Source of the DNA: a virus | Virus record (IMG/VR): IMGVR_UViG_3300037189_030076 | Location: 1 to 24,315 of that record | Direction: 5' to 3' (one strand) | DNA: 24,315 bases | Shown: one piece after another, positions 1 through 16,490 of the stretch | How the letters are laid out: the number at the start of each line of letters is the position of its first letter | Position numbering within the stretch: position 1 is the first letter of the stretch | Translations under genes and position numbers: made by a program | The notes under the pieces: generated by a model | The model's database searches: none | The model's input: only the letters and a program-made list of their open reading frames with translations | Told to the model about the DNA's origin: nothing

Positions 1-1511
1 ACATCCACAGCTATGATGTAGTTAAGGCAATGGAAGAGGTTATTAAAAATCCAAAACCTGGATCAGTTTATAATCTAGGGGGAGGTAGAGAAAATAGTGT
101 TTCCATGCTAGAGGCAATTTCAATTGCGGAGGAATTATCTGGTAAAAAACTTTCGTGGGAATATGTTGACGAAAATAGAGTTGGAGATCATATTTGTTAC
201 ATTAGTGATCTTTCTCTTTTTAAACAGGATTATCCGGACTGGAAAATAACAAAATCTGTTAAAAGAATTATTGCCGAAATTATAGGATCCAATTTTAATG
301 GTCAAACGACTGAAAGATATTTTCCTGGCGATGGTGGGGATGATTACTTTGAAAACTACGCTTCTCCGATTGAAAAATTATGCAAGGGAAAGGTTATTGA
401 TATTGGATGTGGTCATGGATATCTTACTTCCAGAATATCGAATAATTCTAATGTTGAACATGTAATAGGAACAGACAGAGATAATGGATACAAAGAAGAA
501 ACCAAAAAAGCTTCTTACAGAATAATAAACACAGAAGATTTAATTCAGGAGAAATCAGATGGATTTGATACTATAGTTTGTACTGAACACATGGAGCATC
601 TATCAGCAGATCTTCAGATGAATCTTGTGGAATGGATCTCTAAAAATCTTAACACTGATGGATTATTTTTAGGATCAATGCCACATCACGACGACCCTAA
701 AAACCCTTGTCCTTATCACATAAAGACACGTTCTCATGATGAATGGAATTCTATACTAAATCAATATTTTACTGATGTTCAAGTTTATAAATTTGATGAC
801 GAAAGTTATTGGTGGACTGCTAAAAAAAATAAGATGGATAAAATATTAATAGCAATAGCAAGCTGCGAAAGGGATGCTTATAACGGTTTTAACGATGCTG
901 TAAGAAATACCTGGCTAAAAGATAAAAACGTTGATTACAAATTCTTTCGAGGAGTAGGTACCCCAACAGAAAAACCTGACGAGGTTCTATTAGACTGTAA
1001 GGATGACTATTTAAGTCTGCCTGAAAAAACGATGGAAATTGTAAAATGGGCAATGAGGAATGAATACGATTACATCTTTAAATGTGATACAGATACCTAT
1101 GTTGTTTTAGACAAGTTATTAAATTCCAATTTTAAGGACTATGATTACATTGGACACTTTAACGGTGAACTAGGAAAATCTAATTTAATCTATAATAGTT
1201 TATATACATGGGCTAGCGGAGGAAGTGGCTATTTTATCTCCCGTAAAGCTGCCTGGAAAATTATAGCGGAGGGATCCACTGCTAAAGCAATGTGTCCTAA
1301 TTTGAAAATTCCATGTGAAGATCTTTGGATGGGTCAAGTGTTAGGTCCTTTTATAGAATCCGGAGATTTAAAAGCTGCTAGTGATTCTAAATATGGATGG
1401 GGATACAATGAAGATTTTTCTACCGACTATACTTCACATTATTGTTCAGAGGGGAAGAAAAGAAAATTTGACGTGAGTTGGATGCATAAGCATCACGAAA
1501 AGAATTCCTAA
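1..1511 (+). CDS. Epimerase-methyltransferase-glycosyltransferase fusion (5' partial)
   Basis: The reading frame is open from nt 3, so the gene starts upstream; the ATG at nt 30 is internal. Three domains follow one another without a stop. (a) nt 3 to about 285 is the C-terminal end of an extended SDR nucleotide-sugar epimerase, closest in pattern to CDP-tyvelose/paratose 2-epimerases (IHSYDVV, YNLGGGRENS, VDENRVGDHICYISDLS). (b) nt 300-830 is a class I SAM-dependent methyltransferase with the glycine-rich motif VIDIGCGHG (residues 122-130 counted from the Met at nt 30) and CTEHMEHL as the post-beta-4 motif. (c) nt 834-1511 is a GT31-like (galactosyltransferase/Fringe type) domain with VRNTWL, DDYLSLPEKT, the metal/nucleotide-sugar-binding DTD at residues 353-355 in KCDTDTYV, ASGGSGYFIS and CEDLWMG. 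The family matches are pattern recognition. The inferred job is making and attaching a modified, perhaps methylated, sugar to a virion, DNA or host-surface target. A Met at nt 834 could start the last domain alone. Confidence 0.85.
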   Translation, partial: IHSYDVVKAMEEVIKNPKPGSVYNLGGGRENSVSMLEAISIAEELSGKKLSWEYVDENRVGDHICYISDLSLFKQDYPDWKITKSVKRIIAEIIGSNFNGQTTERYFPGDGGDDYFENYASPIEKLCKGKVIDIGCGHGYLTSRISNNSNVEHVIGTDRDNGYKEETKKASYRIINTEDLIQEKSDGFDTIVCTEHMEHLSADLQMNLVEWISKNLNTDGLFLGSMPHHDDPKNPCPYHIKTRSHDEWNSILNQYFTDVQVYKFDDESYWWTAKKNKMDKILIAIASCERDAYNGFNDAVRNTWLKDKNVDYKFFRGVGTPTEKPDEVLLDCKDDYLSLPEKTMEIVKWAMRNEYDYIFKCDTDTYVVLDKLLNSNFKDYDYIGHFNGELGKSNLIYNSLYTWASGGSGYFISRKAAWKIIAEGSTAKAMCPNLKIPCEDLWMGQVLGPFIESGDLKAASDSKYGWGYNEDFSTDYTSHYCSEGKKRKFDVSWMHKHHEKNS

Positions 1512-8124: not shown

Positions 8125-10185
8125 ATGGCTAACTTTTTAAATGAGATAAAAGACAATTTAAGCAGCGTAGCTGATCCGAATCAGATTTTTAATAAAGGAA
8201 TCGATAGGGGAAGAACTACGTTCTTAAAAGGACTTAAAACAACCTCCTCTGGTCAAAAAGAGGATCCAACGTATACTGGGTTTAGAATTATGTTTGATAT
8301 GGGTTACGGTGGTTTGGTTGACCCTGAATCTTATTTACCAATTAGTCCTCTTTTCTCTGAGGGAAGTAGCCAAATAGTTGGTCCGGTAAAAGGAATGAAA
8401 ACCCCAGAGCCAATTCCTAGAGACTTTTTTAATCTGTCCCAAAATAAAATCAGAAATTTTCCCAACTACACAGCGGATATGCAATACATGACTGCTGAAG
8501 CATATTTAAGGGAAAGAAGAAGTTTAGAAGAGAATGGATTAGGAGGAACAACAAGGGATGCTTCTGGAAGGGTTATACCTTTAGATGCTAATAACTTTAG
8601 TGGTTCCGGAGTATCCCACAGAGCGGATGCTTTGGCTGGATTTAGAAATTTATTGTTTAGTATAAACGAAAAAAGTCCATGGTTCATTAAAAGCATTGAT
8701 GGATTAGACGGAGTTCTAAAAAATCTGATTCCTAGGCAGGTAGGTCAAGGTGGATCATATAGAGAACAAAGATCTGGAGTTCTAACATTTAACTGTATGG
8801 ATTCAATAGATCTAAGGGTTAACGCCATGGCGGATTTATACAGAAAGGCCACATATGATTATCAATATCAAAGAGAAACCCTTCCATCTAACCTGAGAAA
8901 ATTCAGAATGTGGATTATTGTCACAGAAATAAGACAAGTTGATCTTCAAAGAAATCTTGCTGATGTTTTAAATCCTTTTAACCTTCCCGGTGTAAGAGGA
9001 ATAGCAGAAACAATCAGAGATATTGGACAGGGAACAGGATTACTCGATGGTGGAGCTAATCAATCTAAAAATCCCGGGAAAGATTTGGAATCTTTTGTTA
9101 AGTCGTTTGAAAAACTTACCCCATATATTTTAATGTACCAATTAGATCTTTGTGAGTTTAATTTTGATGAATCATATCCTTTTACTTCTTTGAACAATGC
9201 TGACAATAGAAATGCAGTAGAAAACAAATTCAAGGTACATGTAGGAAATATAAGAGAATATAAACTTCAGTATAACATTCTTTCTGATCTACTGAAAAAT
9301 GAATCTTCTTTTGCCCCTATATTAGTTCAGGACAGCTGGAACATGGCAGGTTCAAAGATTCTGTTAAAGGGTGTCAATTTAAACAACAACACAAATCTTT
9401 TCAGAAAACTTGCTAACAACTTTATTAATAACTCTGTTGCTTCTGTTGTTCAACAACAGGTTTCCCCGATAGTAACCCAACAGATTTTAGGTAATGCATA
9501 CGGATTTAATGTCGCAGATGCTGTTAGGTCTCTAAATTCTGTCCAAGATCTAGTTACTGGAATAAAAACGATAAAAGCTCCTTTCCAAGATAATAAACCT
9601 CAATCCAAAGGATTTGGCGGGCCAACTGAAAGAAATTATCCAGGAATTAAAGAAGATGTTTATCCAGGGGTACCTGCTCCCGCTCCATCAAATTTAGGAA
9701 ACCAATATCCTACCCCTTCACAAGGTGCAGGATTAGGAAATAGCGACGTGTATCCAAGTAATCCAGGAAGTGACCTAGGATTACCATCCAGAATGTATGA
9801 GACTATTAAACAGGATGAGTATCGTAGTGTTGGCGGAGATCTTGACAATAAAGATTTGGGTGTTCCTGATAGGACTTATCCCACAATTTCTGACGATATT
9901 TACAAAAACAGTCCAGGTTCTGATCTAGGACTTCCTAAGAGGGTTTACGGAACAATAAAGGAAGATAGCTATACTGAAGTACCTGGAAAAGATCTAGGAG
10001 CTCCTGATAGAACCTATCCAATAACTACAGGTGATACTTACGAGAATAATCCGGGGAAAGATCTTGGACTTCCTGATAGAACATATCCGGTAAACAAAGA
10101 TGATGTTTATGGAAATATTCCCGGATCAGACCTTGGTGTTCCTAAAAGAACGTATCCGACTATAGACGAAAACGTCTATAAATAA
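8125..10185 (+). CDS. Tube-associated structural protein with C-terminal 23-aa repeats
   Basis: A 686-aa protein. Residues 200-400 contain TFNCMDSIDLRVNAMADLYRKATYDYQYQRETLPSNLRKF and a later YILMYQLDLCEFNFDES plus KFKVHVGNIREYKLQYNIL, a pattern I associate with tube-like or tube-initiator virion proteins. From residue 505 the composition changes to Pro/Gly/Tyr/Asp, and from 549 to the end there are six tandem units starting at 549, 576, 599, 622, 645 and 668. Consensus: [SK]-D-L-G-x-P-x-R-x-Y-x-T-I-x-x-D-x-Y-x-x-x-P-G; units two to five are exactly 23 residues. The gene lies between hub and spike. Function of the tail is unknown; an extended arm around hub or spike is an inference. ATG context is TTAAAAATGGCT without a Shine-Dalgarno sequence. 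Confidence 0.7.
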   Translation: MANFLNEIKDNLSSVADPNQIFNKGIDRGRTTFLKGLKTTSSGQKEDPTYTGFRIMFDMGYGGLVDPESYLPISPLFSEGSSQIVGPVKGMKTPEPIPRDFFNLSQNKIRNFPNYTADMQYMTAEAYLRERRSLEENGLGGTTRDASGRVIPLDANNFSGSGVSHRADALAGFRNLLFSINEKSPWFIKSIDGLDGVLKNLIPRQVGQGGSYREQRSGVLTFNCMDSIDLRVNAMADLYRKATYDYQYQRETLPSNLRKFRMWIIVTEIRQVDLQRNLADVLNPFNLPGVRGIAETIRDIGQGTGLLDGGANQSKNPGKDLESFVKSFEKLTPYILMYQLDLCEFNFDESYPFTSLNNADNRNAVENKFKVHVGNIREYKLQYNILSDLLKNESSFAPILVQDSWNMAGSKILLKGVNLNNNTNLFRKLANNFINNSVASVVQQQVSPIVTQQILGNAYGFNVADAVRSLNSVQDLVTGIKTIKAPFQDNKPQSKGFGGPTERNYPGIKEDVYPGVPAPAPSNLGNQYPTPSQGAGLGNSDVYPSNPGSDLGLPSRMYETIKQDEYRSVGGDLDNKDLGVPDRTYPTISDDIYKNSPGSDLGLPKRVYGTIKEDSYTEVPGKDLGAPDRTYPITTGDTYENNPGKDLGLPDRTYPVNKDDVYGNIPGSDLGVPKRTYPTIDENVYK
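9769..10182 (+). repeat. In-frame 69-bp (23-aa) tandem repeats
   Basis: Six copies encode [SK]DLGxPxRxYxTIxxDxYxxxPG. The first has four extra residues and the last ends at the stop after 19. The copies differ at many synonymous positions (for example GATCTAGGACTTCCT against GACCTTGGTGTTCCT), so they are old and kept at protein level. Confidence 0.85.
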
Positions 10186-15352: not shown

Positions 15353-15378
15353 ATGGCTAAAAAAAATGGCTAAAAAAA
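15353..15378 (+). repeat. Tandem 13-bp duplication of the S1-like gene start
   Basis: ATGGCTAAAAAAA occurs twice in perfect tandem (15353-15365, 15366-15378). The second ATG opens the S1-like gene. The first ATG is +1 out of frame and gives only M-A-K-K-N-G before a TAA at 15371. The first ATG can also pair in a 7-bp AT stem (15334-15340 with 15349-15355). Confidence 0.85.
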
Positions 15379-16490
15379 GACACTACACAAGGGATGAGTA
15401 TTCTCCCGAAGACAGAGCTCTCATGGACGAGCTTTATGAAGGACATTACCAGAAGAATTTTGCTTCTAAATCGATAGAAATGACAAGTAAGGAACTTGAA
15501 GAAAACCAAGTTCTTAGAGTCAGAATATCGACTATAACAGGGAATCGAGCTATGGGAGAGACCAGTGTTGGTCAATCCGTTTCGATTGACCTTACTAAGG
15601 AAGAGAAAGCTATAAAAAGATTAGGATTTCCACCTATTGAAGTTACACTTGGTTGTGAACTTGATGTGGTAGTTTTTTCTGACAAGAGCGGATCCTATAA
15701 CGGATCATTAGCTGCTGGCTATGAAAATGCTCTTAAATCAGATTTACTAAAATCTATTAAGGACGAAGCTGCTGCTTATGCCTGCAGAATTGAATCTACC
15801 TGTCCTGGAGGATTTATGGTAAACCTTTCTGGAATTAAGTGTTTCCTTCCTGGCTCTCTTGCCGCTGCAAACAGAATTATAGATTTTCAATCGTTCGTGG
15901 GTAAAACCATTAACGTGATGATCGAAACGTATGACGAAAGAAGAGATATTTTCGTTGTTTCTTTCAAGAAATACCTAAAGCATATCATCGATAGAAAAGT
16001 TGAAGAACTTTCTCTAACCCATGAATATACAGGAACTGTTACAGGAACATCTACTGCAGGAGTGTTTGTCGAGTGGGACGAGTACTACACTGGATTAATT
16101 CCTGCTGAAGAATTCGAATCTGCTGGAAAAAGCATGGGCATAGATCCAGGTGGATCAGTTTCTTTCTATGTTTCTGATTTTAGAAATCCTACCCGAATCG
16201 TTCTGAGATTAACCGCTCCAGAAGGGAAAGATAGAGACCTTCAGGAATTAAAAGACGTTTCTTTATCGGAAGACAGGGAAAATAAAATATATAGAGGTGC
16301 AGTGTCTAAAGTTAAGAATTTTGGAGTTTTTGTTAAGCTCGAAAATAACATCGTTGGACTTGTAGAAAAGGACTGGTTAGCTAAGAATCCTAAGGAGTAT
16401 GAGGTTGGATCTGAAATCAACTGTACGATTATGGAGGTCGAGCTACAGAGTTCTAAACTCTATCTAAAAGAAAAAATTGAAAATACTTGA
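15366..16490 (+). CDS. Ribosomal protein S1-like RNA-binding protein
   Basis: A 374-aa protein with three S1-type OB domains after a basic N-terminus (MAKKRHYTR) and a short linker. S1-a, about residues 137-200, has PGGFMVNLSGIKCFLPGSL and FVVSFKKYL, closely following the second repeat of bacterial bS1 (KGGFTVELNGIRAFLPGSL in E. coli, quoted from memory). S1-b, about 219-288, has YTGTVTGTSTAGVFVEW and GLIPAEEF. S1-c, 307-372, has YRGAVSKVKNFGVFVKLENNIVGLV and a closing LYLKEK. It is shorter than cellular bS1 (four to six domains). The family binds single-stranded A/U-rich RNA and brings mRNA to the 30S subunit. The inferred role is promoting translation of SD-less phage mRNA, or competing with host bS1. 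It overlaps the next gene by 14 nt. Confidence 0.85.
   Translation: MAKKRHYTRDEYSPEDRALMDELYEGHYQKNFASKSIEMTSKELEENQVLRVRISTITGNRAMGETSVGQSVSIDLTKEEKAIKRLGFPPIEVTLGCELDVVVFSDKSGSYNGSLAAGYENALKSDLLKSIKDEAAAYACRIESTCPGGFMVNLSGIKCFLPGSLAAANRIIDFQSFVGKTINVMIETYDERRDIFVVSFKKYLKHIIDRKVEELSLTHEYTGTVTGTSTAGVFVEWDEYYTGLIPAEEFESAGKSMGIDPGGSVSFYVSDFRNPTRIVLRLTAPEGKDRDLQELKDVSLSEDRENKIYRGAVSKVKNFGVFVKLENNIVGLVEKDWLAKNPKEYEVGSEINCTIMEVELQSSKLYLKEKIENT

Follow-up and report, generated by a model that had tools for sequence, protein, structure and literature searches.

The start of the virus sequence analyzed here most probably encodes two enzymes rather than one. We give a probability of approximately 80% to a reading in which two genes lie at the 3′ end of a glycan-modification locus: an SDR-methyltransferase fusion and a separate GT31-like transferase gene that begins at nucleotide (nt) 834. 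The window is the whole virus record of 24,315 bases, and the record holds no sequence upstream of it. Alignment with a close relative indicates that the continuity of methyltransferase and transferase in the window hinges on the length of one tract of eight A residues. A single base of a poly-A tract is enough to give two phage glycan genes the look of a novel tripartite enzyme, and such fusions should therefore be checked against relatives before they are reported.

Three domains lie in one open frame

Frame 3 is uninterrupted from nt 3 to a stop codon at nt 1509 to 1511 (502 amino acids, with the 5′ end cut by the contig edge). As the preliminary description stated, an SDR tail, a class I methyltransferase, and a GT31-like transferase are present in this single frame (nt 3 to 1511), with the motifs YNLGGGRENS (nt 69 to 98), VIDIGCGHG (nt 393 to 419), and KCDTDTYV (nt 1080 to 1103). 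The 5′-truncated SDR part (nt 3 to 299) comprises ~97 residues of extended-SDR, nucleotide-sugar epimerase/dehydratase-like sequence and is recognized through its relatives; it is 58% identical to a stand-alone phage SDR in locus L004. Fused to it in frame is a class I SAM methyltransferase domain of the Methyltransf_23/UbiG-like kind (nt 297 to 830), which scores 43.0 bits with PF13489 (cutoff, 27) and carries VIDIGCGHG as SAM-binding motif I. The domain resembles Methyltransf_23/UbiG-like enzymes in this motif and in its score over the Pfam cutoff; it differs from UbiG in scoring 38 versus 103 bits, far under the equivalog cutoff, and in being joined to an SDR. The GT31-like (Galactosyl_T, PF01762) GT-A glycosyltransferase domain (225 amino acids) occupies nt 834 to 1511.

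A one-base difference in a poly-A tract marks the methyltransferase/transferase junction

The only close relative in the collections searched is IMGVR_UViG_3300021963_000109 (referred to here as L003; overlapping copies exist), with 95% protein identity. Single-sequence and DNA-pattern searches of viral contigs found no close copies of the transferase or the junction other than in this contig, and a tblastn search of 50,697 phage records found no homologues of the transferase. The full 24.3 kb of the window aligns with L003 at 84% nucleotide identity. In L003, the SDR-methyltransferase ORF ends with WWTAKKK at a TAA stop codon, and the transferase has its own ATG (L003:1105), separated from that stop by one base and in a different frame. 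The DNA alignment, otherwise gapless throughout the region, sets GCT-A8-TAAGATG in the window against GCTAAAAAGAAATAAGATG in L003. Hence, the A8 homopolymer at the methyltransferase/transferase junction (nt 822 to 829) has a 9-nt counterpart in L003 (AAAAAGAAA), which is followed by the in-frame TAA. No other uncompensated indel in coding sequence occurs across the 24.3-kb alignment, where the remaining indels are a compensated pair (1 and 4 nt), in-frame ones, and one between genes. We propose that the 502-amino-acid frame arises because the junction A tract is one base shorter than that of L003, and that the missing base either was lost naturally by replication slippage or is an error of the consensus. 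If the deletion is genuine, a fused protein and reinitiation at ATG834 would both be possible.

The preliminary description had read the frame as a single polypeptide with three activities. The three domain calls are correct, but the single polypeptide is mostly unsupported, with a stop codon between methyltransferase and transferase in L003 and the Met at nt 834 as a probable independent start. That description had also named the circumstances that would undo it, namely, a missed stop or frameshift between the domains in raw reads, or an independent gene from the Met at nt 834 with the rest degraded. The stop and the separate transferase start in L003 are such a circumstance for the third domain. 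Neither half is degraded. Pairwise dN/dS ratios against L003 are 0.016 for the SDR tail, 0.082 for the methyltransferase, and 0.035 for the transferase; hence, no domain is decaying and degradation of either half is ruled out. By this pairwise measure, purifying selection is strong on both sides of the junction. We also rejected −1 ribosomal frameshifting because, judging from the junction alignment, joining the L003 genes would require a +1 shift or the loss of one base.

The transferase has a probable start codon at nt 834

The separate GT31-like gene probably starts with the ATG at nt 834 to 836. Transferase homologues in L067 (52% identity) and in L182 and L183 (36 to 37% identity) start at the equivalent Met (MKILIAILSC or MKVLIAVLSC), with no methyltransferase or SDR preceding them. 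Fusion of the transferase to an SDR-methyltransferase is missing from these three loci and from L003. Gene starts in the window mostly lack a Shine-Dalgarno sequence, and 80% have A at −3. An A-rich start type is expected, since the structural relatives of the phage are Tenacibaculum, Flavobacterium, and Lak phages. The ATG at nt 834 lies in such an A-rich, Bacteroidota-type context, without a Shine-Dalgarno sequence and with A at −3, −6, and −12; A at these positions favors initiation in Flavobacterium (PMC6847099). Given this context and the Flavobacterium-type relatives, the poly-A tract probably doubles as the slippery site and the transferase start signal.

SDR fusions recur in phage glycan loci

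The SDR-methyltransferase fusion is common to the window and the L003 contig, without an indel; going by these two independent contigs, it is real. It is also unusual: members of this SDR family, common in both phages and bacteria, are normally stand-alone proteins, to judge from the ORFs compared. We compared 86 viral and 80 bacterial SDR ORFs (counts that include duplicate loci) and found C-terminal fusions to the SDR nowhere except in the L003 contig (along with the window), L067, and L040. At L067:4998-6605 the SDR is fused C terminally to an FkbM methyltransferase, and at L040:2154-4091 it is fused to a GT11 fucosyltransferase-like domain. Both share with the window the SDR family, the fusion point at the SDR C terminus, and the kind of locus; they differ in the partner domain and in having no third domain. 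L004 and the 634-kb phage LR745206 encode the SDR on its own, with a GT11 gene next and a methyltransferase gene after that. From the fusions in L067 and L040 and the separate downstream genes in L004 and LR745206, fusion of the SDR to whichever glycan enzyme sits downstream therefore seems to recur. That one SDR family in phages is repeatedly joined to varied methyl- and glycosyltransferases remains a useful finding if the window holds two genes.

A working three-domain enzyme is unlikely

An alternative reading is that true loss of one base from the poly-A tract at the junction has created a genuine SDR-methyltransferase-GT31-like enzyme that works as one chain. We consider this unlikely. 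Taken as it stands, the window sequence carries the fusion in an open frame with every domain intact and conserved, and consensus indel errors are uncommon in A8 tracts of assembled contigs. Fusions of two glycan enzymes recur in the loci of such phages (SDR-FkbM, SDR-GT11, and GT31-GT2), and the ancestral separation of the genes would be drawn from one close relative and distant transferase homologues. However, that one close relative keeps the two genes apart, and no further three-domain fusion was found among the 166 SDR ORFs or the transferase relatives. Moreover, the chain would have hardly any linker, with only about five residues between a methyltransferase strand (residues 269 to 275) and a transferase strand (residues 281 to 287). 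The full-length structural model is of low confidence (pTM, 0.47), too poor for judgment of domain packing or assembly.

We regard as very unlikely a slippage switch, in which the tract would shift between 8 and 9 A residues during transcription or replication and yield both fused and separate forms. The A8 tract ranks with the longest homopolymers in the window, no other of that length lies within an open coding frame, and both frames remain under purifying selection. In Blochmannia, poly-A frameshifts are described in genes that are not decaying, and transcriptional slippage possibly corrects them (PMC3017870), a precedent that counts for such a switch. However, that survey took tracts of 9 or more (PMC3017870), and eight is short; the L003 tract is broken by a G, so slippage is not conserved; and A-rich sequence is expected at this position anyway as a start signal. 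It is improbable that this phage produces a genuine SDR-methyltransferase-GT31-like enzyme with three domains, perhaps alongside the separate proteins in a ratio set by slippage. If it did, a controlled ratio of fused to separate enzymes would give tunable glycan decoration.

The SDR family lacks the canonical catalytic tyrosine

The window carries only the last ~97 residues of the SDR, and the Rossmann fold and active site lie outside it; the active site is described here from longer relatives. The closest solved sequence is CDP-tyvelose 2-epimerase (RfbE/TyvE; PDB 1orr and 9rl0), which the longer L003 SDR matches with an E value of 2.8e-16 and a phage homologue in L012 matches in a full-length alignment with an E value of 4.5e-33. 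The likeness includes conservation of STNKVYGD and of the C-terminal sugar-nucleotide region. Full-length homologues have the NAD-binding TGxxGxxG motif as VTGSxGLIG and the triad Thr/Ser in STNKVYG, both beyond the truncated window copy. In CDP-tyvelose 2-epimerase, Tyr164 of YxxxK serves as the general base (PMC13098431). In contrast, the phage and bacterial homologues, some of them fused to a methyltransferase or glycosyltransferase, have Phe at this position (HSxFGxSK). The substitution is present in 166 of 166 homologous SDR ORFs, including that of L003, at a site outside the truncated SDR of the window. The "2-epimerase" label of the preliminary description is therefore insecure, and that the protein epimerizes a sugar is unproven. 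Given the conserved Phe, the SDR may rely on a different base or have another mode of action, and epimerase activity is putative. All matches to NCBIfam SDR models fell under their cutoffs (e.g., galE, 100 versus 262), no tyvelose-epimerase model matched, and a literature search found nothing direct on a nucleotide-sugar SDR with a Tyr-to-Phe change. The chemistry of an SDR family without the canonical catalytic tyrosine is a testable question. This altered-active-site family is widespread in phages and bacteria (L003:3-566 and 165 others, in loci L003 to L173), and its members retain the Lys and STNKVYG.

The transferase is GT31-like by fold

The transferase matches Galactosyl_T (PF01762) with 33.1 bits (cutoff, 23), a match that covers residues 50 to 98 only. 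An AlphaFold model of the protein (pLDDT, 73) has its best PDB matches to human B3GNT2, B3GalT5, fly C1GalT1, and Manic Fringe. The top 33 matches are all β-1,3-glycosyltransferases or chondroitin synthases, with E values down to 5e-11 and a TM score of ~0.57. We conclude that the GT31-like assignment made in the preliminary description is supported by the predicted fold. The phage protein shares with the GT31/Galactosyl_T enzymes (B3GNT2, B3GalT5, C1GalT1, and Fringe) a GT-A fold, a DxD motif, GGxGYxxS, and EDxWxG. It differs from them in its ~20% identity, its minimal 225-amino-acid domain, and its being encoded by a phage. The metal-binding DxD, present as D-T-D in KCDTDTYV, is invariant in the window, L003, and L067.

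Among the viral matches of the transferase are a "Fringe-like" protein from Myoviridae and proteins of giant viruses. PF01762 matched 6 of 6 phage or virus records (G000, G001, G002, G404, G405, and W01); these were picked for holding relatives, so the count shows that the search works and not how frequent the family is in phages. The same model had no matches in 395 sampled Bacteroidota genomes; the presence of GT31-like transferases in phages, despite this negative result, is a further useful finding. A literature search found nothing direct on a phage GT31. In two of the distant homologues, the GT31-like domain is N terminal to a GT2 domain (L182:3998-5386 and L183:3998-5401), forming a GT31-GT2 fusion. 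These two proteins have CFCD or CFPD in place of DxD, and metal binding by them may differ or be lost.

Glycan decoration is a plausible role for the locus

The phage is contractile tailed, and its host is probably a member of the Bacteroidota. Its identity was assigned from baseplate genes in the window and from relatives among Tenacibaculum, Lak, and huge phages, with Flavobacterium phages among the structural relatives. SDR homologues sit in clusters with GT11, GT25, DXD-sugar-transferase, and FkbM genes. Of the general roles proposed earlier, glycan decoration is plausible from these neighboring genes in relatives, whereas DNA hypermodification is without support here. With two genes at the 3′ end of the locus, the SDR domain would transform a nucleotide sugar, and the attached methyltransferase would methylate that sugar or the glycan receiving it. 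The GT31-like enzyme would add a UDP-sugar, probably in a β-1,3 linkage, via a DxD-bound metal. We infer that the products decorate part of the phage virion or the surface of the infected cell.

Two further proteins in the window drew our attention by eye. The C terminus of a 686-amino-acid protein (nt 9640 to 10185) appears to consist of a degenerate repeat of ~24 to 25 residues (GSDLGLPxRxYxTIxxDxY). A protein encoded between tail genes (nt 15366 to 16490), for which there was no PHROG match, resembles repeated S1-type RNA-binding domains.
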